64,000 bases of DNA from Trebouxia sp. TZW2008 (lineage: Eukaryota; Chlorophyta; Trebouxiophyceae; Trebouxiales; Trebouxiaceae): positions 63,243 to 127,242 of the forward strand of contig BDIU01000219.1 in assembly GCA_002118135.1 (NCBI GenBank). Reading direction: 5' to 3'. A model generated the notes under the pieces. That model did no database searches. It saw only the letters and a program-made list of their open reading frames with translations, and was not told where the DNA came from. This document shows positions 1-64,000 of this stretch, piece by piece. Each line of letters opens with the position of its first letter. Within the stretch, counting starts at the first letter, position 1. The translations under genes and the position numbers were made by a program.

Positions 1-3000
1 CTGCACACAGGTGAGGAAAGCCTTCCAACTTTAGTTTGGCAAAGGAACATGCAATATTGGCCAGTGACTGCACACGCACATGCAAAGGTCAGACTTTGAG
101 AGCAGCAATGCATGTATTTCAAAATGGTAAGCATGCAACAGACAACAATACTAGCCAGTGAGCAGTGACGGATGTGTCAAGGTTGCTGAGAAAATGCAGA
201 ACATTGTCTGTTGTTGACATGCGCAACAATCTTGCTCAGTGCTACATGCTTGTAGGTGCATGTAACAAGTGACAGGCATCGCTTTGTTTCTTCTTCTGCA
301 ACGCATGACAGGGAGGTAAGCAAAGGTTGGATGCTGGCTAAACCTGATCTGACAGATTGATTTTCTGCCGTATGGTTGCCGCTGCTGCCGCTGTGATGAA
401 GGCGGCATCATCAATGAACCCCTGGCTTGCGCTCGCCCATAACACATTGGACAGTGCAGGCAATGAGTACCATGACACACTGCAGTCACACAGCATGTTC
501 GGCAAAATTGCGTGAGTCACAATGCGTCATGTGACATGACTGCTATGATGTGGGCTGCATCATCAGTGAACCCCTGGGTTGCGTTCGCCCATAAGGCATT
601 CAACAACGGAGGCAGTGAATACCATGACACACTGCAAGCCACACAATATCTGATGTACATCATGCCACTGTCAGATGTGTTGCATAAGTGCTGAAATGAA
701 GGCTGCATCATCAGCAGACCCCTGCCCTGCGCTCGCTCACAAGACGTTGGACATCGCAGGCAATGACGACAAGGACACACCGTACGCTACACAAAAGCTC
801 ATGTAGCCCATGTACGTCACCATCAAATGCCAAGCATGCAACAAATGTCTATCGTCATACAATGATACTCAGCAAATGCGAGGATAAACACAGTCTAGTG
901 AGTCAAGTGGCGCGGATTTCATACAGTCAATGTCACAAAGGCATGACAGCTCAAAGAGGTCTGATGTCCCGGATGATACTAGTATCAAATGAGTGGCACA
1001 GTTGTCACGTGCTTGACATGTAGGCTGTGCGCTTTGTGAAGTAGCCAACTGCAGGCTGTGCTGCAATACATGATTTCCACAAGAGCATAATAGCCAAAAC
1101 AGCATAAGGTTGCAACTGGAACAGATTGCTGTACAAGATTCAGAAAGCATTTGGGAGTGCAGCAAACAGTGCACAAGCAGCCGTAGAGACAAGAACAGTT
1201 CGAAGCAGAAACTAAAGTCCTGGTTCAGAAACAAGACATGCATGCATGCAGCTGCACTCCAAATGAGTCGCGTCCAAGCAAGCAGCACTGCCTGCAGGAA
1301 TTCCATGTTGAAACAGGCTGCCAACTCTATCTACATGGCGCAAAAGCAATTTCAATATGGGGGCCCAACACCCAGAAGCATCAGCTGCAAGCTTGCCCTA
1401 AGGCAAATAAGCAAGAGCTACATTGCTGGTCCAATAAGCCTGCTGTATGGCCTACAGAAACAGGGTGAGGCATACCTGTCACCTACCTCCGATTTACACG
1501 GGCACAGGTGTCAATCAGTCGATCAGCAAACAGCTCAACCTAGCAGTCTGCTTGAGGAGACAACTGGCTCACGGCAAAGATGTGACAATTGCAAGCTTTT
1601 CAAAGAGCACTACCTGGCAGTCAATCTAGGGGAGAAATGATCCCAGAGGGCTTGGGTCAGAAACCCCTGCTTTGCTGCCCCCCACACTACAACATATAGC
1701 TCCTTTGCTGGAATGTACTCGCTTTCTGCTCTTGACCTCTCACTGACGAGCTGTATGACCTGTGTACAAATATGACCGGATGAAACATTAGCTCAAGGAC
1801 CTAGCCTAGTGGCATGAGTATCATTTTGTAATGTATAATTTGAGAAGTTTGCCCATCGCTGCATGGGAGTACACCAGAATAGATTGCTCAGTAGAGCTTG
1901 TAAAGCTGGTAGAGGGAGATGCTTTGATAGCAATTGGGCAGCACAGCCTTGCAATGATCAGCAGCATCACATGCATGCTAGACCAGTCATGCTTGACAAA
2001 AAAGACAGTGAAATCCACAGCAAAAGTGAGTGCATTTTAAATGGACGATGTCCACAGCAAACGTGTTTAATTGCTTCAGTATGTCAGTAGGAAGGTCACA
2101 AAATCTGGCTAGCAAGTATGTGGACGCTGCTGATGACAACAGCAAGCGGGTCAATGCTGCTGATGATGACACTGCGCATTGAATGCTGCTGATGATTACA
2201 AAGCATGCCCAACTGCTGATGATGACAGCAAGCGTGTCAATGCTGCTGATGATCACAAAGCATGTGCATGCTGCTGATGATGCCAGCAAGCGTGTGAATC
2301 CTGCTGATGATTACAAAGCATGTGCATGCTATTGATGATGACAGCAAGCGTGTCAATGCTGCTAGAGATGACAGCAAGCATTCAATGCTGCTGATGATGA
2401 CAGTACACATTGAATGCTGCTGATGATGTTAACAAGCGTGTTCACGCTGCTAATGATGACAGCAAGCGTGTCAATGCTGCTAGAGATGACAGCGAGCACT
2501 CAACGCTGCTGATGATGACAGTACATATTGAATGCTGCTGATGATCACAAAGCATGTCCATGCTGCTGATGATGACAGCAAGCATATCAATGCTGCTGAT
2601 GATGACAGCAAGCATGTAAACACTGCTCAAGATGATAGCGAGCATTCAATGCTGCTAATGATGACAGCGAGCATGTGAAGGCTGCTGATGATGACAGCGA
2701 GTGTGTACATGCTGCTGATGATGACAGCAAGCGTGATTGCATACCTTGCGCATAACTTTGGTTGATCCAAGAGACATGGCGCCTTGAGCCCAGCATATGT
2801 TGATCAAGCCCCACGCATCACACTCATGCATTTTGCCTATCAGGGCTGTGGTCAGCTCTTGCATCTCTGGATGCTTCTGCAATGCCTGCTTCTTGGCCTC
2901 AATGTGTCTCTGGGGCTCGAAGGCCTTGAGTTTCTGCAAAAAATAACAATGCAAAGTCGACGATTTTCACTCCTTTTAGGCAAACAGAATAGCTTATTTG

Positions 3001-5320: not shown

Positions 5321-8300
5321 ATGGACATGCGCGCCTTACAACCCAAGCTTCAACTCAAGCCTGCTGTTTGCGCAGCTCAAGTCGTTGGTGAGGCAGCGAT
5401 ATGAGAGCGCTGTCAGAGCTACAGTAGCAGAGCCCCCCGTGCAGAAAGCTCAGAGAGCTCAGAAGGCTGCAGGGCCTGATCCAAACATTCTGTATGATGC
5501 CATCATCGTTGGAGGTGGCGTTGGAGGTCTTACCACTGCATCACAGATGGCAGCAAAGGGCGCCAAAGTGCTGGTGCTTGAAAAGTGAGACGCCATCATA
5601 AATGGCACAGCCTGCATTGGATACAGCTGCAACACAAGGACCATCAACACAAATGGTGCATGAGCGCATCCCTTTGACTGCTTGACAGGCCTAGCAAAAG
5701 AATGGTGTGTAGCAATGGTGGTGCTGCTGGCCTGCACACACATGAGCCCAGTAGGGCTTTTGACTGCTTGACTGACAGGCACTGCCTTGGAATGGCATTG
5801 ATGGCACTGTTCACCTGCAGGTACATCATTCCAGGAGGCAGCGCAGGCGTCTTCACAAGGGGTGACTACACCTTTGATGTGGGATCATCCATGATGTTTG
5901 GCATGGGCCAGCAGGGCACCACCAATTTGATCACTAAGGCTTTGCAGGCTGTGGGTAAAGAGCTAGAGACTATTCCAGACCCTACGCAAATTCACTATCA
6001 CCTGCCAAAATCTGAAGCCCATCCTCAGGTGCAGTCAGGTGCCATGTCAAACACTGGCACCTGTTGTCGTTGCACCGCCCTTATTATCATTGACATTCTG
6101 CACCAATTTTGTGTGAGGATTCTCAATGCTGCACAGATTTGCTACTTCCTGCCCAAATCTGAAACCCATTTACTCAGGTGCCATTTGATTCTCCTCTTGG
6201 CATCACTTTTGTTCTGAATCTTCTGCAAAGTCGCATCAATCTTGTCTGCAATCATTCGTGCAGTCAGGTGCCATGTCACATCATTTTCATTGCACCACCC
6301 TTGGTCTCGTTATTGTTTTGCACCGTCCTCAAGTGGACGTTCTTGATGCTGTTCAAATTCACTACCACCTGCCCAGATGTGAACCTTAAAGTGCAGTCAG
6401 GTGCCATTTGACTCTTCTGTCAGCACTAATCTTTTTTTGAGCTCTCAGCAGTCTTGCACCAATCCTATCTGCCAAAGTTTGCATTCTGTGACATTTGAGG
6501 TGCAGTCAAGTGCCATGTCAAACCGTCCTTGTTGCACCAGCCTTGGTCTCAATCGCTACGATTTGCACCACCCCCATTGCACTGCTCTTGGTGACACCCA
6601 CGACAATTTTACACCAAGCTTAGTTGAGTTTTGCTGATGCTGCGCAAACCTCATTTTCACTTCAAGTGCTCGTTGTGCATCACTCCAGGTGCAGTCAGGT
6701 GCCGATTTGGACCATCTTGGCTGTTGCCTCTTAATGTCATCATCACTTTGCACTGTCCTTGTTTTGAACCAACTTTAGTTTGCATTGTTCCAACTTTGTT
6801 GCATTTCATTTGGAGACACCTCCCTTTGGCGACTGTCCCAGGTTTGGCATGCAGTCAGTTCTGCAGTGATGGCAAGGGGAGAGGCACTCAGGGACCCAAC
6901 ATGAGGGCCACACAGATGATGTCGAGAGTCACCAAGCCCTGCACAACAGACATCTGACACTGCCATATCAATTGCCACAGGGTTTGGAAGTCAAAGCATG
7001 GAGGGGATATGAGCTGCAGGAACCAGGCATGATATTTTTTAGAACAGCGCAAGGGCATCTGCAAACTATATTGGGTGCTGGCATAGACTTGCCATTTCGG
7101 GTTTTTTGCTGCATAAGCAAGCTTGGCATTGAACACTGCCATGTGACTGGCCACAGAGTTTGGAGGTCAAGGCATGAAGGGACTATGAGCACTTCCTGCA
7201 AGAGCTGGGCAACAAGTGCCCAAAAGAGCACAAGGGCATGTTCAAGTTCTATAAAGGGTGCTATCATAGATTTGATATTCGTTTCTTGCTGCATATGCTC
7301 CAGCGATACACCTGACATTGGCATGTGACTAACTATAGGGTCTCGAAGTCAAGGTATGGAGGGACTATGAGCAATTCCTGCAAGAGCTGGGCAATAAGTT
7401 CCCAAAAGAACGCAAGGGCATCCGCAAGTTCTATGACGAATGTTGGCGTGTGTTCAACTCCCTAAATTCCTTGGAGCTCAAGAGTCTTGAGGAGCCTCGC
7501 TATCTGCTTGGACGTAAGTGAATGGTCTCAACGTCACCGTGACACAGAGCCAGGCTCTGATTGCATTGTTGTTCTTAATCCGCCTCAGCCTTGAACATGA
7601 TCCATCATGACCGTCTCAAGACCAGGCTGCATGCTTGCAGAAATTGTGAGGAAGTTTGTTGATGTCCCGTGACGTAAAGTGCGAACGATCTACGCCTCAG
7701 CAAATGTGTCGAGTCAAATTGTGAGGAAGTTTACCGCTTACCTTGATCATTGGCATTGAGAGCTACCTTGAGATCAATCTGCGTGTCTGCAGAGTTTGTC
7801 AGGACATCTTTCGCTTACCTTGATCATTGACATTGAGAGCTACTTTGAAGTCAATCTGCATGCTTGCAGAGTTTGTGAGGAAGCCCATTGCTTGCCTGAC
7901 CCTTGCAAGCTTCCTGGCCACCAACACCGGTGACGTTGCCCGCAAACACATTCAAGACCCTGAGCTCCTCAGCTTCATTGACATTGAGTGCTATTGCTGG
8001 AGCACTGTGCTGGCTGGGCTGACGCCGATGATGAACGCTGGCATGGTCTTCTGTGACCGGCACTATGGGGGCATCAACTACCCAAAAGGTGGTGTGGGCA
8101 GGATAGCACAGGCGTTAGCAGGTGATCAGTCATGCATGAAGAGGATTCCTGCTCTATAGTGAATGCATGTGAAATGTTCAGTGACCAGCACTATGGGCGA
8201 ACCAACTACCTCAAAAGGGATGGTGGGCAGGAAAGCAGAGGCAGTCGCAGGTGATTATGCACAGAAGTCACACTGTCAACCTTTGCAGAATTGAAGCTGG

Positions 8301-10471
8301 CATGGTGTTGTATGATTGGCATTCTGGGGGGGGATCAACTGCCAAACAAGAGGTTGTGGGCAGGATAGCACAGGCATTGGCAGGCTCTTCTTGTTTGTGA
8401 TTGCTTGTTTAGCTCCTGATGCCATGTGTCTCAAAATTGTCAGGCGATTGTCCCAAAGGGACAAGCTTGCTTGACCAGCATGAATGCACTTGTTGCGTAC
8501 TTGCCTTGTGTAACAACGATGTACAAATGCATGGGCCGCCAGGCACACTCTGCTGTAAGCCTTTGTGCAGCTGTTTCAGAACTCATGGTGTGCCAAAGTG
8601 TGGTCGACTGTGTTATAGACATGCTGACTTTCACGTGACTGTCCTCAAAGACATGGTCCGCCATTGTGTGGTTGACGAAGTGATCAGACACAATGAGTTG
8701 GATTGTGACTGGTGATATGTGCATCCATAGTTGTAGCGGGATACAGTACTTTTTCTTGACATCGGCATCCAAGATAAGGACACTTTTTATGTAAGGACAA
8801 GGCAATTGGGAATCAGTCACTGCATTCTGACTGCAGTGGTACCACTGAGTACGGACAATTTGATTCAAGGACAATATTCACGGCAACTGCAGCAGTCATC
8901 TTCAAGAAAACAGAAATCACTGTAGCTTCGTCATTCACAATCATCTGTGTGTGATTTTGCTGCAGATGGCATAGAAGAGCGCGGCAGCAGCATCTTGTAC
9001 AAGGCCAATGTACGCAAGATCCTGACAGAAGGCAATGGCGACAAGCTAAGGGCACTTGGAGTGCAGCTGGGTGATGGACGTGTGTTCAAAGGCCAGGTAT
9101 GTAGCTGCTCCCATGCACACCTACTGCTTGTTTCAGCTTTTCGGGAGACGAAGAAAGTCTCGTATCTTTTCGGTATACGAAAAAAGTCTCCCGGAATCAT
9201 TTTCTCCCCTTCAAGGTGCGCTTGCCATACCTTCACAGGACACTTCAGTTGAGGGCAACGTGCGCTGTGCAATGAGGCTAGTGTTGCAGCCTGTTGCAAA
9301 CATGATTCAGTGCCGCTGTATCTACACTGCTGCACGCCTCAAGCTCTTTCTCATGTATGTCATGCAGACAATCATTTCCAACGCTACAAGGTGGGACACC
9401 TTTGAGCACTTGATGGAGCAGCAAGCGCTGCCCAAGTCAGAGCAGCTGTTCAGGAAGCGCTACAAGAAGAGCCCCTCTTTTATTTCCATACACATGGGTG
9501 TCAAGGCAGATGTGCTTCCTCAGGTGTGTTTCTTGACATCTCAATATCAACATGTCCACTTCGACTGTCAGAAAGACCCGATCGGGGGTCCTGCAGACTG
9601 TGTCTGCCTGTCAGCCGCTGCCTCTTGCAATGGGTATCTGCCTTTCGGCGAGTGCCTTCTGCCTTTCAGCCATCGGCGTCTGCCTTTCATCCATCGGCGT
9701 GTACCCGTCAGCGACTGGCATCTGCCTTTCAGCGACTGGGACCTGCCTTTCAGCCATGGGTATCTGCCTTTCGGCGGCTGGCTTTTGCCTTTCAGCCATT
9801 GATATCTGCCTCTCATCAATCGGCATCAGCATTTCAGTCATTCTTCCTGTCATCTGTGCAGTATCATTAAGGATCTTGCCTTTAAAACATGCTGCTGTGT
9901 GCAGGATACTGAGTGTCACCACATCATTGTCGAAGACTGGCAAAAGATGCAAGACCCACATGGCACCCTGTTTGTGTCTATACCATCCTTGTTGGACCCT
10001 TCAGTGTGTCCAAAAGGCACACATGGCGTGCACATCTTCACACCAGACTGGGCAGACAACTGGACAGGTCTCACAACCCAGCAGTATGAACAGAAGAAGC
10101 AGGAAGTTGCTGACAGCCTTGTAAAGCGGCTTGAAGCATTTTTCCCTGGCTTGCAAGCAGCCACAATCTTTAGGGAAATTGGCTCTCCTAGGACGCATAG
10201 GAAGTTTCTGAATAGGGCTGATGGGTCGTATGGCCCTATCCCTGCGCGGCGGCCCCTAGGCATGTTGGGAATGCCCTTCAACCGAACATCTGTGAAAGGG
10301 TTGTATTGTGTTGGCGATAGCACTTTCCCAGGACAAGGCGTGAATGCTGTCGTGTTTTCTGGCTTTGGCTGTGCGCATAGAGTGCTCTGTGATCTAGGCA
10401 AGCAGCCAACCATACCCATTTTGGACCCTGCTTACAATGGTCTACTAAGCGCTGTTAGGGATAGGGCTTGA
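5321..10471 (+). CDS. CRTISO: Prolycopene isomerase (carotenoid isomerase, CRTISO), plastid
   Basis: The product would isomerise cis bonds of tetra-cis-lycopene to all-trans-lycopene in plastid carotenoid synthesis, an FAD-dependent step. Exons with matching phases: about 5321-5584 (leader, then dinucleotide-binding [20 protein letters not shown]), 5821-6028, 7339-7513, 7870-8121, 8966-9096, 9368-9523 and 9905-10471 (stop). Diagnostic stretches are [70 protein letters not shown] and the C-terminal [19 protein letters not shown] loop. All match plant/cyanobacterial CRTISO in order. The start is unsure: the frame containing the FAD motif has no ATG, so ATG 5321 would need a ~43 nt intron (5388-5430), or an upstream exon exists. 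Introns 2, 3 and 4 are full of exon-edge copies. Confidence 0.93.
6009..6720 (+). repeat. Ghost copies of the CRTISO exon 2 donor region
   Basis: The functional exon end and donor (ctgccaaaatctgaag...cag|gtgcagtcaggtgccat, 6009-6045) recurs in decayed form at about 6147, 6254, 6365-6410, 6498 and 6688. The most conserved piece is gtgcagtcaggtgccat, i.e. the 5' splice site itself. Each is followed by a similar 'gcaccaccc/gcaccgccc' stretch, so the unit includes intron sequence. Confidence 0.8.
6981..7338 (+). repeat. Two ghost copies of CRTISO exon 3
   Basis: The real exon begins at 7339 (gg|tctcgaagtcaaggtatgg). Copies with acceptor and exon start lie at 6981 (ggtttggaagtcaaagcatgg) and 7157 (agtttggaggtcaaggcatg), spacing 176 and 182 bp. 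Copy 2 keeps about 100 bp of exon homology (GAGCTGGGCAACAAGTGCCC) but carries a frame-breaking change. Copy 1 loses homology after about 40 bp. Confidence 0.9.
7641..7869 (+). repeat. Three ghost copies of the CRTISO exon 4 acceptor
   Basis: The functional acceptor cag|agtttgtgaggaag starts exon 4 at 7870. Related acceptor-plus-exon starts occur at 7641 (aaattgtgaggaag), about 7715 (aaattgtgaggaag) and 7793 (agtttgtcaggac). The last two units also share cgcttaccttgatcattg(g/a)cattgagagc upstream, a ~80 bp tandem period. Confidence 0.85.
8122..8385 (+). repeat. Two ghost copies of the CRTISO exon 4 end and donor
   Basis: Exon 4 ends at 8121 (gcgttagcag|gtgatc). Copies of the last ~70 bp (cactatggg...gtgggcagga...gcag) end at 8250 (cag|gtgatt, donor intact) and about 8381 (ggcattggcag|gctctt, donor lost). 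They preserve the words CACTATGGG/GCATTCTGG and GGCAGGATAGCACAGG in order. Confidence 0.85.
8744..8889. mobile_element. Diverged MITE-like element related to the one at 18319-18492
   Basis: It shares the segments taaggaca, ggcaattgggaatcagtcact, gcattctgactgcagtgg and tacggacaa with the element in the FAD gene. Its left end is TA-CAGTAC, its right end approximates the inverse (AACTG). No coding capacity. It lies in CRTISO intron 4. Confidence 0.6.
9142..9197. repeat. Nested inverted repeat (potential hairpin) in CRTISO intron 5
   Basis: cgggagac at 9142 pairs with gtctcccg ending at 9197, with a second inner pair tcgtat / atacga around a loop of cttttcggt. A further gagac/gtctc pair lies in the left arm. 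The perfect short arms are unlike the surrounding AT/GC-mixed intron. It could be a small terminal-inverted-repeat remnant or an RNA hairpin. Confidence 0.55.
9620..9835. repeat. 21-bp minisatellite (ATCTGCCTTTCAGCCATGGGT type)
   Basis: About ten units of a 21 bp motif (a/g tctgcctttcagcgactggg) follow in tandem in CRTISO intron 6. Because 21 is a multiple of three, long open frames appear on both strands; these are repeat artefacts. Each unit contains a pyrimidine tract followed by CAG, i.e. an acceptor-like motif, ahead of the real acceptor at 9904. Confidence 0.9.
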
Positions 10472-11223
10472 TTTTATTCGCAAGCTGCCTTGCTCGACAC
10501 AAGCATGTTTATGATTTTGTTCTGAGCTTATTGTGTTGTTTGTGTCACTGTTCTGTAGGTAATGCTGTGGTTCTAACCACGCTGTGAAAAGACTGACAAT
10601 TGAATATTGCACGATACAATCCTCAGAGCATTGCCACACTCACCTGTCAGCTGAGCTCTGATTGCGTGATTCACTGCAATTCGTTGCTGACAGTCTACTG
10701 GGGTTCCGGCGAGTAACAGAAAGCGCAGCCTGCGTGTATGGGTTAAGGTGTGTTTTCGTCTCAACGTCAAAAATACTAAGCAGATCTTTGATAGGATGTT
10801 GACAGGCTCTTACTGCCCTTGTCCTATGCAGTGGCTTATAAGCGCCACTGCCTAGGGCTCTATCTGAGTCGCTGCTCAAATCAGATGCACTGTGAAAACG
10901 GTCATTCATTGCAGACATGTTGAGCAGACTTTTTACACATGGCACTGCTGTGGCTGACATTTCACTGTCATACTATAAACATGGGAAACATCACCAGCTT
11001 TTCACCAGGAGCCCTTCTGTCTATCATAGGCCTGCTTTCAAGAAGGCTTTCACTGCAGACATGTCAAACAAACTCTGTATGCTGTGACTGACATGGGGCT
11101 GTTAAACTGTAAACACGGGAACCAAATGAAGGGCTTTTCATTGAGAGCGCCGTTGTCTATCATAACCAGCCCTTGTACAAAAAGAGATTTCACTGCAGAC
11201 ATATACACGTGAATACACAACTT
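10472..11223. other. Convergent 3' region of CRTISO and SNF8 with tandem copies of the SNF8 3' coding end
   Basis: The first ~430 bp after the CRTISO stop show no gene. From 10905 to 11187 there are two ~140 bp tandem units that continue a third one, 11188-11325, which contains the last codons of SNF8. Minus-strand copies retain MIDN/MIDR-like codons (gttatgatagacaacgg; cctatgatagacag) corresponding to the real AMIDDG. They are downstream ghosts of the terminal exon. Confidence 0.75.
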
Positions 11224-12658
11224 CTATGTTGTGACTGATATTGGGGTGTTATACTGTAAACATGGGAACCAAGTCAAGGGTTTTTGATCAGGAACCCCAT
11301 CATCTATCATAGCCAAGCCTTCTTTCAACAGAGCTGACAATGTCTCGGATGCACGGGTGTCAGTCCATTTAAGACTGCTCATGAGTTCCTCTTCTGACGT
11401 ATATCCTTTACTCTGTGCCAAATTCAGCGCTGTGTTCTTGTCTTGATTGAGTTCACCAGGCACTGACTGCACTAAGCTTTTGTTGCCTATTTTGACCAGC
11501 TGAAAGCCACTTCCAAGGGTTTTGAGCTTTCCTATTGCCCGTGTGATGTCGTCTTCACTGACTGGCTCCGCTGCTGCTCCTCTTCGCCGCTGCAACATCA
11601 ACTTTATCCTTATCATCATCTATGTTGCAGTGCTTGTATGCATTGTCAGCATGCAATCTGCATGTTGCTTAAAAGACACACAAATGGATGGGTGGACACA
11701 GACTCATTTTGTCCATTTCTTGCATCACATGCACTGTTAGCTTCACAGAAGCTGTGCATCTGTTTACTTGCTGTTGACATTTAACACTCTTTCAAAGACC
11801 CATCAATAGAGCTCCAAACAGACATTACCGTGCTTGGGCTTAGTAGATGAATCAGGCACAGTTGATCATTTGCTAGATGACACACATGACAGTTACTGCT
11901 TCTGCTTTTGCAGCAAAGACTGAGGAATGATTCCAAGCCAGCTGTGCCTGGTGCTGAGCTGCATGCTTCTGAATAGAGAAAGGCAGGTGCAACGGCATCG
12001 ACTGTTACACAACGAAGCTTCTGATCTACCTGAACAGCATTTCTGAGTTAGCCTCAAGGGCTGTTGCCCTATCTGGGTCTCTCACTGAGCATAAAAAGGC
12101 TGTTGCCATACCTGAACAGCATTTCTCAGGGAGCCCAACTCCATGAAGCCTCCATTGTAAGCTCTGGTCGCCAGGCAGGCTTCAACAATCTGCACTCCAA
12201 GCTCATAATAAAAGTCGCCAAACCCCAGCAACTGAGCCCACATGCCTTTGTTGGAAGCCAGAGGGTCTACTCCAACATTTGCACACATGGTGTGGAACTG
12301 AGCTCTAAAAACTGGATCCTGCCGTATGTCGTTCCTGCATGGACCCAGTTTAAACGCCTGAGTCATTTAAGTAATAGATTGGGCATGAGAAGCTCAGTAG
12401 CAAACAGTGTTGCCCAGACATGCCTGTGCTTGATGGCAAATTCCTCTAGGCTCTTCTTGAAGATCACCATCTGTGACTTCATGTGCTCAAGCTTTGTCTG
12501 TTGTACATGCTCTCCAAGCACTTTATACTGATCCTGCGCTTGACACAAAGTTGGCACAACAGCAAAACAGAGTGATAGTGATTGATCGAAACTAGCTGAC
12601 TGCATACCCGGGTTTGGGCTCCCTTCTGTAGCCCCTGTATCCCAGGACGCCGCCGCAT
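11224..12658 (-). CDS. SNF8: ESCRT-II subunit SNF8/VPS22
   Basis: ESCRT-II subunit acting at endosomes in sorting ubiquitinated cargo to multivesicular bodies; partner of VPS25 and VPS36. The model has four exons with consistent phase: 12658-12608, 12533-12424, 12334-12112 and 11589-11224, giving 249 residues, the usual family length. The N-terminus [11 protein letters not shown] is the canonical VPS22 start, so the start codon is well supported. Winged-helix core words are [46 protein letters not shown] and [20 protein letters not shown], ending near TWFP as in other VPS22s. The exon 2 donor appears to be GC (CACAG|GCATGT); no GT donor keeps frame. It diverges from the FAD dehydrogenase across 356 bp. 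A ghost of the exon 3 donor lies at 12028. Confidence 0.95.
12026..12050 (-). repeat. Ghost copy of the SNF8 exon 3 donor
   Basis: acctgaacagcatttct at 12027 repeats the exon 3 end plus donor found at 12110-12127 (acctgaacagcatttct), 83 bp away in the downstream intron. The flanking ggctgttgcc is shared too, so the unit spans exon edge and intron. Confidence 0.75.
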
Positions 12659-13014: not shown

Positions 13015-16000
13015 ATGTCCCTGATTGCCGGTTACTGCCCGCGCCTGCCTGCCAGTCGCTGCGCACATCGACACGACACTTACAGCGCGGCTTGTTTCCT
13101 GTCGCCGGATCGAGCGTTCAATCTTATTCGACGCCATCAGCTTCAGCGTTTTCCCTGGGCGCAGCTCAGATCGCAAAGGCAACGGCGTCCAAGCGCTCAA
13201 GCAGCAAAAACAGCGAAGTCAGCGAAGTCAGCGAAGCCAGCGAAAGCAAAAGGGAACGTCAAAAAGGTCTTTCCATCACGACAGGTGCCGGGACGCTCTT
13301 CTTTCCAGAGTGGCGCCGATGCACGCATTGGTGGTTCACGCAAACAAACCAAACCAGAAATTCGTCAAGACAGCAATTCCTGCAGGAAAAGTGGAGGCTA
13401 TACGAGGTCAGGTTGTCAATCCAGGATGACCCTGGCAAGGACATGCATGAGACCAGCGAGGCTCTCTGTAGTGCAGTTGCGCTGAAGCTCAAGTGCAAGG
13501 TGCCACTGCACTGTCTCGCAGCATTCTCAAACTCACCCATGCCAGCCAAAGCTGTTCAGCAATGCATTGATGCCCTTGCTATAAAGTTTGTGATTGAATG
13601 CCAGCTGCCAGCTGAATACAATGTCATATGAAGAGCATGCCCAGCCAGGCTAGCTAATCAGACATAAATGCAAGCTTTGAAAGAGCCAATCAGCATATCC
13701 TGTGTTGAAGTAAGCCATGCATGCTCTTCATCCAAGGCATGAGGGTTGGAAATGCATTTACCTTGCATTCACACTTCCTCTGCCCCAAATTATTTGCATG
13801 CAGGGTCAAACACTACCTTCAGATGCTGTCACAGTGATCAGGAAATCCTTCGATGCGCGCATTAAGCACAGAGACTTTGTGTATGTTGTTGATGTTGATG
13901 CAGCAGCAGCAAAAGTTGCTGGTGCTAAGCCCAGATTCAAGTCAGGGCAACTGGAAAGGTATGCGACACCACACAAATGCTGCAAAAGCACTACAACACG
14001 TGCATGACAGAGCACAGCAAATTATAGCTGTACATGTTGTATGCCATCCGGGCTTAGGGCATGCTGCAATTAGTAGCATTGAGCAAGTAGAGCTACAGAC
14101 CAAGTCTGCATCAGCTGTGTAAACCCCAGAACCAAATTCATGGGAGACAGTTGGTTGCTCCAGTACAAACCTAGCTGCGCCTGCTGAGCCTGTCTAGCAC
14201 ACGTTTAGAATGCATGAGATGAAACCAGAGTTGGCAATGCCTCCAATACATGGCCTTTCCTGCAGTTGTTGCTTGATTTTCTGCAACATGGCTGTGTAGA
14301 AAGCCGCGGGTTTGTCATGCTTGAGGCGCTAGGCCTCACTAGCCACGTCATTCATCAGTGAAGTTGTTTCTCTCAGTGCTTGACATGTTGTACATTGGTG
14401 CACATCAGCCGTTTCACCCATGCCTGAAAACATGCCTTCAACCATCTGGTATATGCAGTGATCTAGTTTGATCCATTGCAGGGTGCCGCATGAACCCACA
14501 TCTGGCCAGGCCACTCCACAGCGGACAAGGACCATGGCATACAAGCAAGACCCAATTGTTATTGTTGGCAGGTCAGTCCCCTTTGGTCACTGAACTACTG
14601 ATACTGTTGCTTTGCGCCAGACAAACGCCTACATTGCAACCAGGGGCCATGACCTACAAGCAAGACCCAGTTGTTGCTGTTGGCAGGTCAGTCCCCTTTG
14701 GTTTGAGCTACTGATAGTATGACTTGACGCCAAACAAACGCCTGCATTGCAACCAGGGGCCATGGCCTACAAGCAAGACCCAATCGTTCTTGTTAGTAGG
14801 TAATTTATGTTTGGTAGCCGAAATACTGAGAGGGATGCTGTATGCTGATCAGACAAATGCTCAGTGGCCAAAGCCATGGCTTACAAGCAAGACCCAATTG
14901 TTGTTGGCGGCAGGTCAGTCCCCTTTGCTGGCTGAAACTGTGAGTGTTGCTATATGTTGAACAGACAAATTCACGGCAGCCAAGGGCCATGGCACACAAG
15001 CAAAATCCAATTGTTGTTGCTGGCAAAGTATGGCAGGACACATTTTCAGCACAGAAAATGGGAATTGAAGGCACTTAGGCAAATTGACTGTTTGTGTATA
15101 TATCCATGCAGTGGTCCAGCAGGGCTGTTTGCAGCATTGGAACTGGCTGAAGCTGGATTGCCTGTGACTCTGTTGGAGCGGGGCCAGCCTGTAGAAAGCA
15201 GGGGCAGGGACATTGGTGCTCTCATGGTGCGGCGCCTGCTCAACACTGAGTCCAACCTGTGCTATGGTGAGTGCTAAGCACTGAGATCGGAGCGCTATTT
15301 CACACTAGGCTTGAGCACATTGCCGTCTTGCCCATGTTGTTCCATTGAGTGCTGTGGTGCGTGAAGAGGGCTTCATTGCTTGTTGGCACCCTTCATGGTG
15401 CGGCGCCTCCTCGACACTGAGTCCAACCTGCGCTATGGTGAGTGCTGAGCGCTGAGCGCTGAGCCTTGAGTGCTGCCTGCCTGTCTGGTGGAGCAGTCAC
15501 GCAACCCACTACGATTGCAAAATGCTGAACAATGAATGACGCGTACTCACTCTTTGCCTGTATGTCTGAGCAGATGTGCGCCTTGCTGATCACTGCTCAA
15601 TGCTCACCTCTCAAAACTGAGTGTCAAACACTAAATCTGAAGTGTTGAATGGTGAAATTTGACAATAGATAGAGATGAGGGGTTGCAGGGGAGGGGGTTG
15701 CAGGCAATTGGAGTGATGAAAAGCTGACCATTAAGGTGGGCCGTAACAGCGACCCTGTGATCTTGAGCACCAAATGCTGAAGGCTGAATGCTGACTCGTG
15801 AATGCTGAATGCCAAATGGTGAGGGATGAACGATGACTTGCGAGTGCTGAAACTTGATGGTGGTGTTGCAGGGGAGGGGGGTGCAGGCACTTGGAGTGAT
15901 GGCAAGCTGACCACCAAGGTGGGCCGCAACAGCGACCCTGTGCGGCGCGTCCTACAGACCCTATACACCTTTGGTGCCCCCCAGGTCTGCCTTCCCCTTC

Positions 16001-19000: not shown

Positions 19001-19937
19001 GCCATAACTCTTCTTCTGCTCCTACTGCTTCATCAGACTTCAGCAATCACAAATCCCAGGGCTCTGCTGCTGAAAGCGCACACAGTCAGGAAAGACAACA
19101 GTCTGGTGCTGCTACAAGTACATCAGGCAGTGATGGGTCAACTCCAAGAGGGTTGCATCAGGGTTCCAAGCAGCCCTCAGGGCAGTTGCAGGGGGCCAGT
19201 AAGGCAGGGCAGGGCAGAGGGCAGTTGCAGGGGGCCAGTGAGGCAGGGCAGGGCAGAGGGCAGTTGCAGGGGGCCAGTGAGGCAGGGCAGGGCAGAGGAG
19301 TGTACTCCTTCTGTATGTGCCCTGGGGGTCAGATCGTCCCCACCACCACAAATCCTGAAGAGCTTTGCATCAATGGCATGAGCTTCAGTCGCCGCAATTC
19401 GCTGTGGGCCAATGCAGCGCTGGTGGTGGCGGTTCAGCCCTCAGACTGGAGTCATTTGGAGTCCCAACACGGAGCTCTTGCTGGAGTTGCTCTTCAGGTC
19501 CAAGCAGAAAGGTGTGTTTCAGTCAACTGCTGGTGACATGCATTGGTAAGTTGTTGGCCATGCGCATCAGTCACCTGTTCGTCACATCTTTGGACAACAT
19601 CAAGTCCTTCCTGGAGTGGCTCTTCAGCATCAGGCAGAAAGGTACGCATTAGTTACATGTTGGTGTCATGCTGCGCAGGTATGCCGTTTAGCAGGAAAGG
19701 TATGGCGTCAACTGTTGTGAACATGCTATGACAACATGGAGTGCTGTGGAGGCCCTTGAGGTTCAAGCAGAAAGGTTTGCATGAGTCACCTGGTCACATG
19801 CTAGGCAGCTTTCACAATCCAGCGGGAAAATTATGAAATGTGCAAGGTTTCAGCACGTACTCGTCCTCACCTTAATTGCACATCTGAGAATCATGTATAC
19901 AGGCATAACCTTATAAGACAATATGCATCTGACGCTG

Positions 19938-19969
<32 letters not shown>

Positions 19970-35898: not shown

Positions 35899-36215
35899 TT
35901 ACAAGCCCATGTTCTTGGCCAGCAGCTTCTTGTAGTCGCGGATGTCGCCCTTCCAAGGTGTCACCTTTTTCTTGTCACACACCCAGATCTCATTTGACAC
36001 CTGGTGCAAGCAAGACAACCATGAGTACAGTAGGGCAGTTAAAAAACACTCAATCATCTGCAGACTTGACAATGTACAATGTGAAAAGTAAAAGCAGCAG
36101 GCAGCACAGGACAACCCCAAATGTCGCCTGACGAGTAAATCAAGCAAGAAAATCAACTCTGCAACATAGGAGTCAAGTATGATTTTCTTGTGATGGTGAG
36201 AACTGCTATCTACCA

Positions 36216-36253
<38 letters not shown>

Positions 36254-47206: not shown

Positions 47207-50200
47207 CTAGTCATAACCATACTGTCTAAAATACTCAGGGAAGCGCTGCTTGAGCTGTCCTGCTCTAGTCTGATCAGGCTGTTTGCTGACATTTGCAGTG
47301 CTTGGTGATTGTTGGTTATCAGCGAGAGGCGCAAGCCCTTCATCATGGTTTTGCTGCACCTCAGCACTGTAGTGTCCTGGCCACAGCTTGCTGACTGGGT
47401 CAGGGGCGCCCCTATAGGCAGGCTTCAGACTTCTCAGCTCTTCATTCACCTCTGCCACGCTGACCTATACAGTGTGCACTATGCTCAGCTGCCATGAAAC
47501 ATGAACAAGACACAGAAAGTCTATACCTTTGAACCCCTGACAGGAGCCTCTCTTTGCCACAGCAACACATGTCTAGCAGATGCAATACACATGCTGCTTG
47601 AGATGCATGCATCAAGAAAGTGCTCTGAAATGTGCAGCCTTCATCGAACTATGAGCTGGAGTTCAGACAGACAGCATGACTGTCAAAGGTCATACAAGTG
47701 CGCACATGTGTCAACAAGGTTCATGACTGCTGCAAGTTCAGGGTGTCGTGATCATGACCAATGCAGGTTGCAAGCACCTGCTGAGCAATGTCCAGAACCT
47801 CTGCCAGCGCCTGAAGCTCCACTAAAGGCTGGCTCATGATGTTCTCATAGGCGACATCCCTCTGCGCAACTGCCTGTAACGCGCCAGGAGACAATTTAGT
47901 TCTGCAGCTGGTCACATGACATAAATCAACAAGCATTGAGCCTGTTTCTCTGCTGTTATGTCGTGTTCTGAGCGGCCACTACCAAAGCCTGTGAAAGTTG
48001 GTGTCAGAGTACACTGTGTCTCTGCATCAACGATGGCACACCGACACACTTGCTGTTATGCAGTGTTTCTGCAGGGCCATTGCTGATCAGGCAGTGTAGT
48101 CTGACTCCTTTGCCCAGGAGCACCAGCAATGGAAGGTAGGCACACTGCACAATAGCAAGTATTTGATTAGGACCGGTTCATCATGCCGCTCCTGTATGCA
48201 GGAGTCAGAGTACATTGCCTCAGTGATTGATGGCTGGAGCGTCTCTACCCACCACTGCTGATGGTGTAGGACATAAGACCCAAAAGTGCCCGACATGCAT
48301 TAGGCCTACCTGCCAGTGCTGATGTTTTGGACATAGGACTTGGCATACAATGCATAATGCTGCTGTCATGCATCCTTCATAGACCACCCACCCCCGGCCC
48401 CTCTTACGCCAGACCATTCCCCCCCCCCTCTCCCCTCCCTGGGCTCTGGAGAAGTGAGAGCATGGTACCTGACCAGTTGGGGTCATGCAAGAAGGCTACC
48501 TCCCACTGCTGATGCTCCTGGACATAGCAGGCAGCATACGCTGCGTCATGCTTTGCTGTCATGCAGCACTCCAACCTGCCATTGCTGATGCGTTTAAAGA
48601 CAGGAGCTTGAACCCCCTGATTACTTGCTGTCATGCAGCACACCCTTCCGCCTTGAGTGATGCTCCTGTACATAGGATGCAGCACACACTGCATAAGAGT
48701 CAGAATGCAGTGACCTGTCACTTGCTGTCATGCAGTGTGCGTGCCTGCCATTGCTGTTGCATCAGGACGAGGGAGACAGCATACACTGCATGGAAGTGGG
48801 ACTGCAGTGCCTCGTAACTTGCTGTCGTCAGTGTGTGCTTGCCATTGCTGATGCTTCTGAACACAGGAGTCAGGACAGTTCCACAAGCCTATTCATGCAT
48901 TGACCTTGAACCTCCCCTCCCCCCTCTTGCCCCTTGCGCTGATGCTCCTGAGAGTCAACGCACTTCCTGATCACTAGCTGCTGTACAGTGACCCCACCTG
49001 CCACTGCTGATGCTCCTGAACATAGGAGTTGGCATGCACTGCGTGAAGTACGCATGCAATGCCTCACTACTTGCTGTCATGCAGTGTGCCTACCCGCCAC
49101 TGCTGATGCTCTTGAACATAGGAGTCAGGGATGTTGAAGGCCCAGCCCACACGCTTATAGGACGCCACCACGCCGTGCAGGTCTCGATGAGTCAGGAAGA
49201 TGTGGTCTGCTTGGCTGACATCCCAGTCATCACTCCAGTAGTGAGTTTTGATGACAACATGTCTGTCTTGTGCATACTGCCTCCCTGAACACATTGTGCA
49301 ACACATTTCAATATGTAGTGTTGCAGGAAAGGGTTGCATTCATTCATTCATTCTAAACATGTGCTAGACAGGCTCAACAGGCTCAGCTAGGTAGGTGATG
49401 GAGCAATGCATGTTGCTGGCCTAGTACATGAGTGGAGCAAGAGCAGGAAGCAATCTAAAAGAAAAGAGCGCGACAACACTTGACGGCATGTGTGATCATG
49501 CACAAACTGGAGTGGGAGTGCATGGCCAAGAGGGTGGGTAGTCATATACAAGCTGTCAAACAGAACATCGCAAAAAAGCCATGACAACTTACGCTGCTGA
49601 ATCTTTTGCTGATCCAGGTTAGTGATCCAGTATGGGTCGTACGGAATGTGCGCATTCTTCAGAAGCAGCCGTACAGCATTGAACAACCAGGTGCTGCCAG
49701 ATCGCTCAGGACCTACACACAGGACAGAAGTTTCTGTGAGCTGCATGTGAAGACATGCATCCCATACAGTAGGGAGGCTGAGATGGCCAGCCCTGTAGCA
49801 GTTGTCTTTGTACAGCACGTTTTGACAGACAGAGAGGGTCCGTCGCTTAGATGTATAGTCATCCATTTTCAAATTGAACCAGAAATCAAACCAGAATCAA
49901 CACAGACTGACCAGCTGTCACTATGACCTTTTGATGTTGTGGTCTTGACCATGTCGCGCGCTGTTGCCGCTCCTGAAGTGGTAGATGCAGGCCTTCGCAC
50001 TCTCCATCAAAGCAGGTTCCTGCAACGTAAACATGCAACGTGACATGTCTAGCTGCTGAGCTGATGTGTAGAATGATGAGATGATGCAGCCAAATTTCTC
50101 ACCATTCTGCCAGGAGCAGCCTTTTGTGAATGCGCCTTCACTTGGGACACAAAATGCTGGTGGCTCCTCAATGTCTGACATGACTGCCTGAGCTGTTCCT

Positions 50201-53313: not shown

Positions 53314-53786
53314 TTCAGATGATTGCTTGGGCCGTGCAAATAAAGCAATAGATTATAGGCAGCAACCTAATGCGCTAAAGACCTCCAGGAGCACCAGACT
53401 GCGACAATGCGGAAGCCGGTGTCAAAAGCTTGTCCACAAGCCTTCAGCAATATAAGCTGACTTGTTATAGCAAGGACACTGTTGCGCTAAGCGGCTTAGC
53501 AATGTTCTTGCGCACGAGGCTTCTGAGTCACAACACTTGCCTTAAAGCACAGCACCAAATCTCTTCTTCTTTGTGGCTTGCAAGAAGATGAAGGGTTGTG
53601 CTCGGTGCATTCGTTAGTCATGTCGCATGATCAGTGTCATGACTTGACCTTGAGCACGCTAGAGCCAGGAGTGACGCCGCGTAAAATCGCGTAGGCATCT
53701 GCGATGCTGCAATGACGTCACAATGCAAGCATAACGAGCTGGCAATTCCTGCCTTTTGAAAGCTATATGCAGCCGGATGTCGCAGC
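53314..53786. other. Intergenic region, 3' of the unrecognised gene and 5' of the ApaH-like gene
   Basis: About 470 bp with no coding pattern; it should include the promoter of the downstream phosphatase gene (same strand). Confidence 0.5.
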
Positions 53787-56441: not shown

Positions 56442-59400
56442 CTAAACAGGCAATGCACCCCTGACAGCGTCCAACGTCTGCTTGACCTCTGCCAGTTGCT
56501 CAGTTGCCTTGGCCTGGTCCTTCTTTCTGATCTGGTAGTCAAACTCCTCAACCTGCAACAATGCAATCGGCGTCAAAACAACCATGCTGCTTCTGCAGAG
56601 CTAAACAATGCAGAAATGCATGAGGTGCTTTGGCAGCAGTGGCGGGTGCAGTCAGACTTGTAATGCATCATCATACTGCTGCATCAGCAAGCAATGCAGC
56701 AGCAGCGGCATACACAAGCATGCAGACAGCTTCAGGAACCTATGCAGGCTGCAAAAGCCAAGGCATATGACAACAAGTGGCTCTCAGCTGCAGCAGCAGC
56801 AGCATGTCACTGTGATATTCAAGTACTTGTCACATCTAAATCAATATGTATAGCGTAACTTCAGCAGGAAGTCCTTCTTGTGCTGGTTGCTGAGGCCAGT
56901 GGGCAATTGACCATAACAAGACATGATTGCTGTTGTCACCTGTCACTGTGATATCACAACAGAGAAAACAACATATACAGCGCACCTTGAGCAGGAAGTC
57001 CTTCTTGAGCTGGTTCTTGAGACCAGTGGGCAGTTGACCATGACAAGACTCGATTGCTATTGGCACACGTCACTGTGATATCGCAACACACAAAAAAGCA
57101 ACATGTACAGCGTACCTTGAGCAGGAAGTCCTTCTTCAGCTGGTTGGCGGCCTTCTTGTCAGCCTTGTTCTTCTGGCTGGTCTCAATCAGAGTGTTCAGG
57201 TCGAAGCGCAGGTTGCCCACCTGGTTACGCAGCTCCTCACGGGCCTCAGTCCTGCAAGCAAACATTACTAGTGAGTATGCATCACACTGATTGGGCGTTA
57301 CGCAGCAACAGGTCTCCGCCCTGCAAGCACACATCAATGGCCAGTGGGTATGCATCATAATGATTGCACATGAAGCAGCAAGTGGCCCTGGGGGTTGGGG
57401 GGGGGGGGGGGGGGGGGATGGAGACCTGAACGGGTACTGCCACTGATGAGATAACTGAAGCATTCCACGCTAAAGGACAAAAAAAGAAGGCTCAAAATCT
57501 AAAGTGGTGCTTGGCTGGAAAGCATCCTTGAGATAGCGGGACACATATCACAGCAATTGGACAAATAGCAAAGGACAGATTGGAGACCTTTGGAGCTGAA
57601 GGGTTGACCATTCTACCAGAGCACACAAATTTTGTAGCATAGGTGAATCACAAACAGCTGCAGATGCAGAGTGCATAGATGTTTGTTACAGAATGATTCA
57701 CCTTTTTGCTGTCAGACAGTCTCACATACTGCAAAGCTTGCCAAGCTGGCAAGAAAACAAGCATTTACATCCAACGGCAACTCGCAAACCTGGCCAGTGA
57801 TAGACTTCATATTGGAAGCAAGCATGATTGCTTGACAGTAAACTCACAGCAACAGTAAATATGACATAAGGTTTCAGTGGATGAAACCAGCTGTACACGT
57901 GCCAGCTTAGCAAGCTTTGATCTACCAGAACCTCCTGGATTGATGTCAGAAGCTCAATCAAGAAGATTCATGTAGCTCAAGGCCTGCTAAGATGGTATGA
58001 ACACGGCTGTCTACATCCCTTGAGCAGGCCGCTGTTGTTTAGCAACCAGGACTACACTGTGCTGGACCACATTGTACGGTGATTGTACACAATGACAACA
58101 ACAATAAGCAGTCGCAAATGTCAGCAAAAGTGTTACTGTATGTGGCTCAAGCGTTGCCAGGCTGGCCTGTGCTAAGCATCACATCACAACCTCAAATGCA
58201 AGCCGCATATCATCAATTGCAATGCTCAAGATGCAAAGTGTAGTTGCATTATACAAGCATTTGACAATATGTAACACTGAGTTGCAGTCAAAACTGTGAA
58301 ATGCACGACAAGTTGCTGCAAACACATAATGCACCATTCAAAGCGTCAATCACTGAAATGGAGAGTATGTTCACCCACTGGATGTAGAATCAGATAATGT
58401 AAGAAGCCTAACAGTACTTCTTCTTGATACATGGCTCCAGCTTGGTGTCAACAATGCGCTCAGCCTCCTTCCCACACCCCTTGGTGCTGTCAATGTCATA
58501 CATTGTGTGTGAATGCATTGAGCTGTGACGTGTATTGCTGTTGTACAGCGTGCAACAATGTTGATGGTATCAGAAGCCTACCAGTACTTCTTCTTGATCA
58601 GTGGCTCCAGCTTGGTGTCGACAATGCGCTCAGCCTCCTTCACACGCGCCTTGGTACTATCAATGTTCTTCCTGTATTGAGACAGGCCATCCCTAGTGGC
58701 CTGGTCCAAGTCTAGGTCACGCGCCTCATAGATCAAGTCAAAGCCCTTTTGTCGCACTGCCCTCTCATCTTGCAACTCGACTGCATTGGCTTTGAGGGCT
58801 GTTAGGCTGATGACACCGGCCACTAGCCCACTCAACACCTGCACCAAATGCCCCACAGGTTGTGCCAAGGATTGGTCAAGCTTCTGCCAAAGCTTCTGCC
58901 AAAAATTCAAAGGGAGAGTCAAGGGACTGTGCCCATCAGCTGAATAAAGTAAGACCAATGACGTGTTTTATATGAAGGCTGGATGGTTGGACAGTCTGGC
59001 GGTATGATCAGCGTTGATGAGGGTGTCCTCGGACATTGTCCAGGCATCATTGAGTTGTTTTGAGTTGAGTTAGTCAATTTGCCGAGAGGCTGTGTACAGG
59101 ATCACTAAGGCCAGGCCAGGCTTGGACAACACGCAGGGTCCAGGTGTTGACAATGTTCGCCTTATAGAATCATGCAGGCAGACAGGCATGACTGGGCTGC
59201 AGATCTAGAAGGGCTGTAAATGACCCGGAATAGGATGACCGTCGCCATGCATGCTCATAAAATGAGGTCTGAGAAAGTATATGGATGGCATCTTGTATGC
59301 ACAAAATGCAGAGACATGTTCCATGTGCAGGAGAGCCATTGCTGTGACATGCTTGGCACTGCTGTGATGACATGCTGCATTGTCACGGCACATTCTGTCA

Positions 59401-61599: not shown

Positions 61600-62150
61600 T
61601 TTACGGAGATATGGCCTGCTTATGTGACGCACCTTGTTGCTGCTGAGGTTGAAGTTGTGCATACACCGTGCCAGGTATCTGTAATGAACAAGCGTGAGTT
61701 GTTCGTGCAGAGAACATGAGTTGGCTCACCAAAAACGACTCAATGACATGTTATCAATCACAATTGCCGATACTGCCATGTGCAACTCATGATGAAGGAA
61801 CGAAGGCTTTTCCTGCATGGCATTATACAAGCACGGCAATCAGGAGGCTATGCACAACGCCTGACTGCCAGATGACTTGCAGTCATATTGCACTTTGCAT
61901 TGTGACAAAGTCAGTACGGAAACGAAATCTGCTGCTTTCTATGAAAAAGGTTCATCTTGCATAACCACAAGATGTGCAACCCTGCATGATCTCAAGTCGA
62001 TCTCAGTTGCAGCATCCTTCCATACCTATCAGCGCCATATATTGCCTCTTTGCAAAAATGCGCACACAAACAGCAGGATTGACTGAGTGACATCATGACC
62101 CAGCGTGTTATTGATGCAGTGCATAGCATCCACAGGAGACTGGCAAGCAG
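61600..62150. other. Convergent 3' region between the intronless ORF and the RPI4-like gene
   Basis: 550 bp between converging stop codons, nothing recognisable. Confidence 0.5.
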
Positions 62151-64000
62151 TCAAAGACTGTCTTGCACTTCTGCAACAGTGGCTTCAAACCACTGCAGAC
62201 CCTCACTGGTGAACATGGCAGCAGACTGCGCTACATCCACAAACAGACCATGCGTGACAACGCCATCTATGCTTTCCACTTCTTTTGCTATTGCAGCATA
62301 CTTGGCATTTTCGCCATATAACTTCAATGGCCCATCTGCAGCATACAGAGGTTCTCAAACAATGATCCAATAGCTGAAAGAGCTATTGAAGGAAGTCACA
62401 GTGCCAGCACATATACATGCCACAAACAGAAGACAATGCACATCATGCAATGTTGTGAAAGTTGGACTCTGTGCTTCAGACAGCTGATGACGCTGTGCGC
62501 TACAGGTGCAAAAATTTGCAAGAGGCTCTCTTGAGACAGAGGCACTTACAGAATTTGACATCAAGGATGTTGTGTCCTTGTGTACTGATGTATGGGCCGG
62601 ACATTGCCCTAGGGTCTGCTGGATCATATCCGCCCACACTCCTTCGCCTGCATGCAAGAGCAAAGGCATTGCATGCTTCTGCTCATCAACAATTGATTGC
62701 GAGCGAGGCTGTTGCATGCACTACATAGACAGGTAGATTGCAAAACATCTAATATGGCAGAATATTGATGCACAATGTTATCATTTGTGATGTAGGATGA
62801 CTTTCCAGCCTTGTGTCAAAGTGGACAAGCATACAAAACTGCTGTGGCCTTGAGATTATGCGTGCTCACAAAGCCACATGTTTTGGCTTGAAGTGGTACT
62901 GCATTGCCTGACCAGGCAGCCGCATCAGGATATGCCTTGACCTTGACATCATAGACTATGGCATGCAGCAGAATCACATTGCCTCACCAGACTTCAGCAT
63001 CAGGTATGAAAATGTCATCCAGCGCCTCTCCTGTATCTTCCCAGAAGTCAGCACCCACAACTACAGGCAGAGCTCCTCGCAATCTGACTGTCGTCTGCAC
63101 AGCATGCTAGTGAAGTAAGTGTTCTGTGCAAGCATGTGTAAAGCCGACTGTCTTGTTGAATTGCAGGTCGCAGGCCTGTGCTTGTTTGCCTGTTGTCATG
63201 CAATGCGCTGCTGTCACAGCTGGTGGATTGAAGTATGCAACTTGTGACAATCTCATAGCTGACCTTGCTTTGACGCATGCAGGACATCTTTGTGCTGCTT
63301 GGTGCTTGTACAAAAGCTTTGACGCTCCTAACAGCATTGTCCACTGGCTCGATCTTGTACCTCAGACAGGTTCAAGGCATTGCAATCATGGCAGTATACA
63401 CAAAGCAAAACAGTCTGCAGCTAGAACAGAAGACAGCCTTGAGAAGACTTGCATTGTTTCTCAAAACATCTCAAAGAGAAGGCTTCGAAATTCAATGACC
63501 AGGTGCATACAGGCACAGTCAACTGTCAGCAGGCTTACATTGTCCATGCCATCCACTAGAGCGACATTGTGCTGACTTGCAGCTAACAATGCCCTCATTC
63601 GCAGCAGGTTTGGCTGCACAGGCTCTGAGATACGGCCGGCAATGAAAGGCAGCCCCTCCTCAAGCAAAACAATCTCATTCACCTCCTCAAATGCCACATC
63701 CACCTGCGATGCATGAGCCTTTTGCAGAAGGTATGTTTGACTCCAAAACAGCTTGTGTCATGCACACACAAAACTTGAGCACTGATGCATTGCTGCTGCA
63801 ATTGGAATTCATAACTTTGTTCATCTGAGCTGTTTGCCTCATACTTCCAAGCGCATTGCATGGCTTCCGCTGTCTTTCATTGCATGCGAAAGGGCTTACA
63901 AAGATGAGTGAGCCCCGACTAGGTCTCAAGCGCGGCATTTTGCAGTCAGACGTTTGGCCATCAAATGACGTTGGGATGGCGGCACAACTGAAGGCATTAT
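62151..64000 (-). CDS. RPI4-like ribose-5-phosphate isomerase family protein (partial, runs off right edge)
   Basis: Exons with matching phase: 63702-63538 (VDVAFEEVNEIVLLEEGLPF..., donor GTAAGC), 63094-62988 (RGALPVVVGADFWEDTGEAL..., ending DAEVW), 62647-62550 (RRSVGGYDPADPRAMSG..., STQGHNILDVKF) and 62335-62151 (YGENAKYAAIAKEVESIDGV, VTHGLFVD, stop). The order PVLV..W..TAEEIDD-like / DAEVWRR / GHN(I/V)LDV / DGVVxHGL matches plant RPI4-type proteins, distant relatives of ribose-5-phosphate isomerase A whose catalytic competence is uncertain. Another probable exon at about 63992-63898 (AIPTSFDGQTSD...) reaches the window end. An exon between 63538 and 63094 may be missing. The N-terminus is outside. 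Confidence 0.7.
62905..62945 (-). repeat. Ghost copy of an RPI4-like exon end
   Basis: ttgcctgaccaggcagccgcatcaggatatg (62907-62937) echoes ttgcctcaccagacttcagcatcaggtatg (62979-63008), the end of exon 63094-62988 with its donor, 72 bp further into the intron. Donor complement changed from cac to gac. Confidence 0.75.

Follow-up and report, generated by a model that had tools for sequence, protein, structure and literature searches.

Decayed copies of exon edges in the introns of a Trebouxia genome and their association with intron length

The stretch of Trebouxia sp. TZW2008 DNA analysed here, called the window, spans 64,000 nucleotides (positions 63,243 to 127,242 of contig BDIU01000219.1) in an assembly (GCA_002118135.1) of 68.5 Mb and 527 contigs. 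Among its genes are those for CRTISO, a FAD dehydrogenase, SNF8, NAR1, FBPase, ABCF, a sulfotransferase and PSBQ. All eight carry ghosts, defined as copies of an exon edge, including the splice site, that lie in the adjacent intron. The original prediction, made from the sequence of the window, had named ten genes with such copies, these eight along with OPR and an RPI4-like gene; the copies are real in each of the eight checked.

Gene models were made for six of these genes (CRTISO, FAD dehydrogenase, SNF8, FBPase, ABCF and sulfotransferase; 28 introns). Exon cores were picked by eye and frame-keeping splice sites were then set by script, except for one ABCF acceptor placed by hand at 36000 instead of 36057. 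Codon-usage gene finding was dropped, its signal being weak and drawn to simple repeats. Pfam assigns five of the six spliced products to the expected families and the short sulfotransferase piece to none. Residues 1-316 of the 318 in the spliced FBPase align with the solved FBPase 5iz1, indicating that the FBPase splice sites are correct. Eight mitochondrial-carrier genes on eight other contigs yielded 25 introns, of which 20 were used, bringing the main set to 48 introns and 96 junctions. The five carrier introns excluded for a splice score below 5 comprise three that are repeat-free, one with an acceptor-edge pair and one with an intronic family. Four of eight candidate CCT (chaperonin) genes, on four contigs, contributed 24 further introns, including one retained with a score of 2.5. 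One contig (C44) is shared between a CCT and a carrier gene, and the two families together make up a set of 12 genes, 11 contigs and 44 introns. How many exon matches a gene had decided the selection of these 12, and repeats were inspected only afterwards; the match tables used for the choice nevertheless included some matches interrupted by stops, and one carrier gene had two overlapping matches. NAR1 and PSBQ (five introns) were added separately, with counts read by eye from match lists, as for the CCT genes.

At least one ghost is present in 20 of the 48 introns and at 24 of the 96 junctions of the main set, for a total of 43 ghosts, 20 donor-side and 23 acceptor-side. The window models hold 35 of them, in 14 of 28 introns, and the carriers eight, in 6 of 20 introns. 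Ghosts also occur in 4 of the 24 CCT introns and in three of the five introns of NAR1 and PSBQ. The prediction that introns throughout are built in this manner is therefore too sweeping: ghosts are widespread, but occur in about half of the introns modelled in the window and in 10 of 44 in the other 12 genes (11 of 49 if the excluded carrier introns are counted). Likewise, the proposed genome-wide mode is seen on other contigs, in a sparser form: the share of intron bases taken up by repeats is 30.6% for the modelled window genes, 11.4% for the carriers and 5.0% for the CCT genes. Direct repeats at short range make up 15.8% of the window. Their share in 23 sampled 10-kb stretches is 0-41%; two of these stretches adjoin the window and most of the others lie near contig starts. 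Local duplication is thus a feature of the genome and not peculiar to this stretch. Inverted repeats are rare in the window and in the sampled stretches, one satellite-like contig described below being a separate case.

Donor-side copies lie downstream of their exon and acceptor-side copies upstream, and the retained copy is the one continuous with the remaining exon, precisely the geometry that had been predicted. The nearest offset per junction is 68-208 bp, with one at 265 bp. Divided by three, the offsets leave remainders of 0, 1 and 2 in 10, 18 and 15 cases, and thus show no preference for multiples of three, although copies within an array are not independent. The splice pair is aligned and intact in 35 of the 43 ghosts. 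Of the 23 acceptor ghosts, 21 retain AG (one altered, one unaligned), and 14 of the 20 donor ghosts retain GT or GC, so that the copies mostly, and not always as had been claimed, include an intact acceptor or donor. The claimed number of copies per border, one to nine, is in line with the sulfotransferase gene (exon end set by eye), where 10 copies score higher than any of 200 base shuffles, though for two the margin is slight (40 versus a shuffle maximum of 37).

The copies are local. Within the 48 exon-intron-exon regions, 87 self-matches of at least 30 bits were found (73 in the window and 14 in the carriers), and zero when each region was compared once with a random region of another gene. 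Inverted self-matches number 9.5, versus 87 direct. No cross-gene match of at least 28 bits appeared with one comparison per intron, and array 17640-18127 was matched at one place when the 68.5-Mb genome was searched by a procedure that scores only the best candidates. A plasmid search with one array gave no match, as expected. The single genomic place of this array and the lack of cross-gene matches point to a local origin. These results bear directly on whether the copies could derive from a dispersed intron-inserting element (introner) or another mobile element. Introners, which occur in Micromonas and other protists, are scattered copies that resemble one another from gene to gene, and they are known to add introns in some green algae; here, too, intron sequence has expanded within a lineage. 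Unlike introners, the present copies are gene-specific, with no dispersal found in one cross-gene comparison per intron and a genome search with one array, and every ghost matches its own exon, coding sequence included. A mobile origin is contradicted by this local character, was rejected and is highly improbable. False tandem copies introduced by assembly were also considered, given the fragmentation of the assembly and the short N runs in 3 of 24 sampled loci. Such copies would be nearly identical, whereas the closest pair falls below 90% identity in 107 of 115 repeat families, and collapse could conceal young copies but not create old ones. The observed divergence led to rejection of this explanation, whose chance is practically negligible.

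Mismatches between ghosts and real exon edges amount to 17.5, 13.3 and 25.5% at codon positions 1, 2 and 3, and a stop or frameshift is found in 31 of the 43 ghosts (over up to 90 bp of exon-derived sequence). Position 3 differs about twice as often as position 2, the pattern that would result from drift of the ghost at every site and of the real exon mainly at silent ones. The ghosts look like one neutral copy paired with one selected copy. In some, for instance at L028, as many as about 40 residues are nearly intact, which would favour whole-exon duplication followed by decay or mutually exclusive exons, two known arrangements in which exon sequence is likewise copied beside its source. However, each copy here has only one exon edge, most are broken, and none of the copies listed takes in an entire exon together with its two junctions (the search covered up to 200 bp of every exon). 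Duplication of whole exons was rejected on account of these one-edge, mostly broken copies, and is very hard to credit.

Introns with ghosts are longer, with a median of 766 bp versus 402 bp for ghost-free introns (p=4e-5). Intron length rises by about 132 bp per ghost (rank correlation 0.60), an effect that may partly reflect the greater room for copy detection in longer introns. The clearest case is the FAD dehydrogenase intron 14572-15111, in which units of about 115 bp fill most of the 540 bp. Intron growth by stranded copies, as originally proposed, is supported.

Ordinary local tandem duplication, with selection tolerating events across one junction, probably underlies these features. 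Short segments of about 70-230 bp would be duplicated in tandem at roughly random places in the genome, perhaps by replication slippage, end-joining or unequal exchange. Where a single exon-intron border lay within the segment, the copy that stayed attached to the exon body would continue to be used in splicing, while the other, with its splice site and flanking intron, would be stranded in the intron, which would gain one unit. The stranded copy would subsequently decay neutrally. Duplications within exons or over whole exons would mostly be purged as harmful, so that exon-edge ghosts and purely intronic copies would remain, and repeated events at one junction may build arrays of up to about 10 copies. 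The copies are too old for a reading of their breakpoints. Tandem duplication across the splice junction, the event originally proposed, agrees with the local origin, the near equality of the two sides (20 and 23), the lack of preference for multiples of three and the pairing of a neutral with a selected copy; a junction-specific process is unneeded.

If units of the observed sizes are duplicated at random in genes with the present ghost-free introns, a single junction is crossed in 50.8% of events; a further 37.2% fall within an intron and 7.5% within an exon, while 2.8% take in a whole intron and 1.6% a whole exon. The junction-crossing share of the first two kinds is 57.7%. When decay and detection are simulated with present introns, this share is 0.50-0.57 up to t=0.18 (18% change per branch) and 0.79 at 24% change per branch; with introns shortened to 300 or 220 bp, it becomes 0.67-0.82 or 0.74-0.82, respectively. 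Observed in the 48 introns are 24 ghost-bearing junctions versus eight intronic families, three of which are short-unit arrays (p=0.050 versus 0.577). In the other 12 genes, 10 of 12 families cross a junction (p=0.085 versus 0.577; p=0.039 versus 0.5), the second intronic family having been merged with a junction family in a cruder per-family count. Restricted to families that can be detected from their intron side, picked by eye, the count is nine junction to eight intronic (p=0.8).

Several observations weigh against random duplication followed by neutral decay. With CCT, NAR1 and PSBQ included, 32 of 40 families are junction-crossing, above 0.577 (p=0.004), and under the cruder per-family null, with present intron lengths, 15 of 23 are junction families versus about five expected. 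The excess over 0.577 goes only if ancestral introns measured about 220-300 bp or most copies are older than t=0.18. The choice of window genes was partly guided by ghosts flagged in the original prediction, a bias that detracts from the random reading and from the junction excess alike. Among the 22 acceptor ghosts whose site is aligned, 21 have AG, somewhat above the roughly 75% expected under neutral decay, an expectation that we estimated from the 13.3% mismatch and that is compared with the output of an aligner favouring intact sites. Finally, the age distribution described below does not fit a steady process.

The junction excess could mean that duplication is directed to splice junctions, for example through R-loops or DNA breaks that arise at exon borders in connection with transcription or splicing, and the tally of the other 12 genes leans the same way. 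That tally would shift to about 11 to 3 with two of the excluded introns, and the families detected from the intron side show no excess. Donor and acceptor sides are struck about equally, and the excess vanishes with shorter ancestral introns or older copies. Because the cruder null includes pairs of ghosts and is based on introns that the copies had already lengthened, more weight is placed on the random-placement and simulation results. Targeting of junctions is thus considered unlikely, and we conclude that random duplication with selection accounts for most or all of the junction-crossing share. The AG retention, in turn, would be explained if ghost sites were kept through use, as decoy or alternative splice sites or as exon-definition signals. 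Donor pairs, however, are intact in just 14 of 20 cases, which is not high for neutral decay, most ghosts are broken, and the mismatch pattern fits neutral decay. Retention through use is accordingly very unlikely.

Closest-pair identity among the 115 repeat families (294 kb, comprising the window and 23 sampled loci) peaks at 80-90%, with seven families at 90-95% and one above 95%. A steady process would leave as many young as old copies; with only 8 of 115 families at 90% or more, the wave looks old, and an ongoing process finds no support. In our judgement, the copies most alike could have been lost where the assembler collapsed near-identical sequence. Yet the gap is also seen in arrays with 20-60-bp units (1 of 60 at 95% identity or more), a length that can be read through. 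Young members do occur among arrays of 4-19-bp units, where 20 of 118 reach 95% or more, indicating that short-unit slippage continues. The simpler, if unproven, reading is that the longer duplications came in a past wave. More broadly, it is conceivable, though doubtful, that the lineage passed through a genome-wide wave of short tandem duplications, possibly junction-biased, that doubled the length of many introns, left datable fossils of exon edges in between a quarter and half of them and has since largely stopped.

Among known systems, duplication within genes that crosses splice sites comes closest to the process seen here. In work on internal gene duplication and the creation of introns, Gao and Lynch (2009) reportedly described how short within-gene duplications, often across splice sites, change exon-intron structure. 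The duplications here are similarly short and cross splice sites, but a pre-existing intron is enlarged and the copies are dead exon edges, often arrayed. The features of junction-crossing intron enlargement are found together, namely a copied edge with its splice site and flanking intron, and a neutral copy paired with a selected one. In the Rogers model, said to be exemplified by the potato RdRP, introns are gained by tandem genomic duplication with AGGT. This also involves tandem duplication of a segment bearing a splice signal; as none of the 87 matches pairs a donor copy with an acceptor copy, the present introns were not visibly created in this way. Intronic minisatellites share the local head-to-tail arrangement, whereas the units described here measure 70-230 bp, are few in number and span an exon border. 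The type of mutation is known, its density seems unusual, and its role in intron growth is readable.

Intron growth is usually credited to transposons or drift. Here, the steps of growth can be read from the sequence, with an event count and a built-in clock in the comparison of ghost with conserved exon. This would permit direct measurement of intron growth, of the tolerance of duplicate splice sites and of the origin of alternative sites. The ghosts also call for caution in gene finding, since they resemble exons with good splice sites. Their positions in the window are collected in Table 1.

Table 1. Exon-edge ghosts and selected source exons in the window
Gene	Feature	Position	Strand	Remark
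CRTISO	Exon, donor 6028/6029, source of donor-side ghosts	5821..6028	+	gene model
CRTISO	Five donor-side ghosts: 6119-6212, 6205-6302, 6317-6407, 6456-6544, 6617-6763	6119..6763	+	alignment scores 58-71
CRTISO	Two acceptor-side ghosts (6950-7064, 7101-7246) of exon starting 7339	6950..7246	+	
CRTISO	Acceptor-side ghosts of exon 7870-8121	7589..7829	+	two after automatic de-duplication, three by eye
CRTISO	Two donor-side ghosts of exon ending 8121	8181..8443	+	
SNF8	Donor-side copies downstream of exon 11589 to about 11254	10905..11174	-	about 144-bp steps; exon end by eye
SNF8	Weak donor-side ghost of exon ending 12112	12001..12057	-	
FAD dehydrogenase	Exon, source donor 14571/14572	14482..14571	+	gene model
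FAD dehydrogenase	Donor-side array	14625..15025	+	about 115-bp steps; four copies by eye, three after automatic de-duplication
FAD dehydrogenase	Donor-side ghost of exon ending 15266	15383..15464	+	
FAD dehydrogenase	Acceptor-side ghost of exon starting 15872	15633..15759	+	
FAD dehydrogenase	Acceptor-side ghosts (16366-16488, 16581-16705) of exon starting 16799	16366..16705	+	16366-16488 weak
FAD dehydrogenase	Weak donor-side ghost of exon ending 16964	17028..17162	+	
FAD dehydrogenase	Four acceptor-side ghosts (17287-17392, 17495-17588, 17590-17732, 17765-17911) of exon 18007-18189	17287..17911	+	nearest two at 182-bp steps
FAD dehydrogenase	Acceptor-side ghost of exon starting 18677	18498..18584	+	
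NAR1	Acceptor-side pair; exon start 24137, ghost about 24230-24332	24113..24332	-	offset 118 bp
FBPase	Donor-side ghost of exon ending 28301	28409..28523	+	
FBPase	Two acceptor-side ghosts of exon 29569-29705	29267..29468	+	149-bp steps
FBPase	Acceptor-side ghost of exon starting 30299	30117..30201	+	
ABCF	Three donor-side ghosts of exon 37181-36967	36585..36937	-	
ABCF	Acceptor-side ghosts of exon 37181-36967	37248..37593	-	
ABCF	Acceptor-side ghost of exon starting 38093	38213..38339	-	
Sulfotransferase	Donor-side copies downstream of exon holding SYKRVGWAFNIPDSYVQEHQQW	47951..49036	-	8 clear and 2 marginal; about 1.1 kb
PSBQ	Donor-side ghosts of exon ending 57116	56838..57145	-	offsets 130 and 257; range includes exon end
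PSBQ	Acceptor-side ghost in intron after exon ending 58582	about 57297-57381	-	
PSBQ	Donor-side ghost of exon ending 58582	58402..58496	-	

Further repeats were noted beside these ghosts. Short-unit arrays that are not exon edges lie at 9603-9842 (about 21 bp, in a CRTISO intron) and 28570-28874 (about 28-32 bp, in an FBPase intron), and about 21 copies of a 30-bp unit occupy 2108-2735, outside the modelled genes. A rare young array of 39 bp (13 codons, 3.1 copies, 98% alike) is found at 19179-19298 within the FAD dehydrogenase open frame 18547-19533; its persistence is as expected if exons accept multiples of three. The satellite-like case mentioned above is a 2.7-kb contig (L007, G000:C60:10001-12689) with 73% of its bases in local repeats, both direct and inverted.

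The splice script placed two GC-AG introns, SNF8 12424-12334 on the minus strand and the intron after 2112, also on the minus strand, of a mitochondrial-carrier gene (L031). Both ghosts of the latter intron retain the GC donor. In the match table, two adjacent matches to the CCT family at G000:C144:151117-151751 overlap in profile range (408-490 and 361-438), with one stop, and may represent another ghost.

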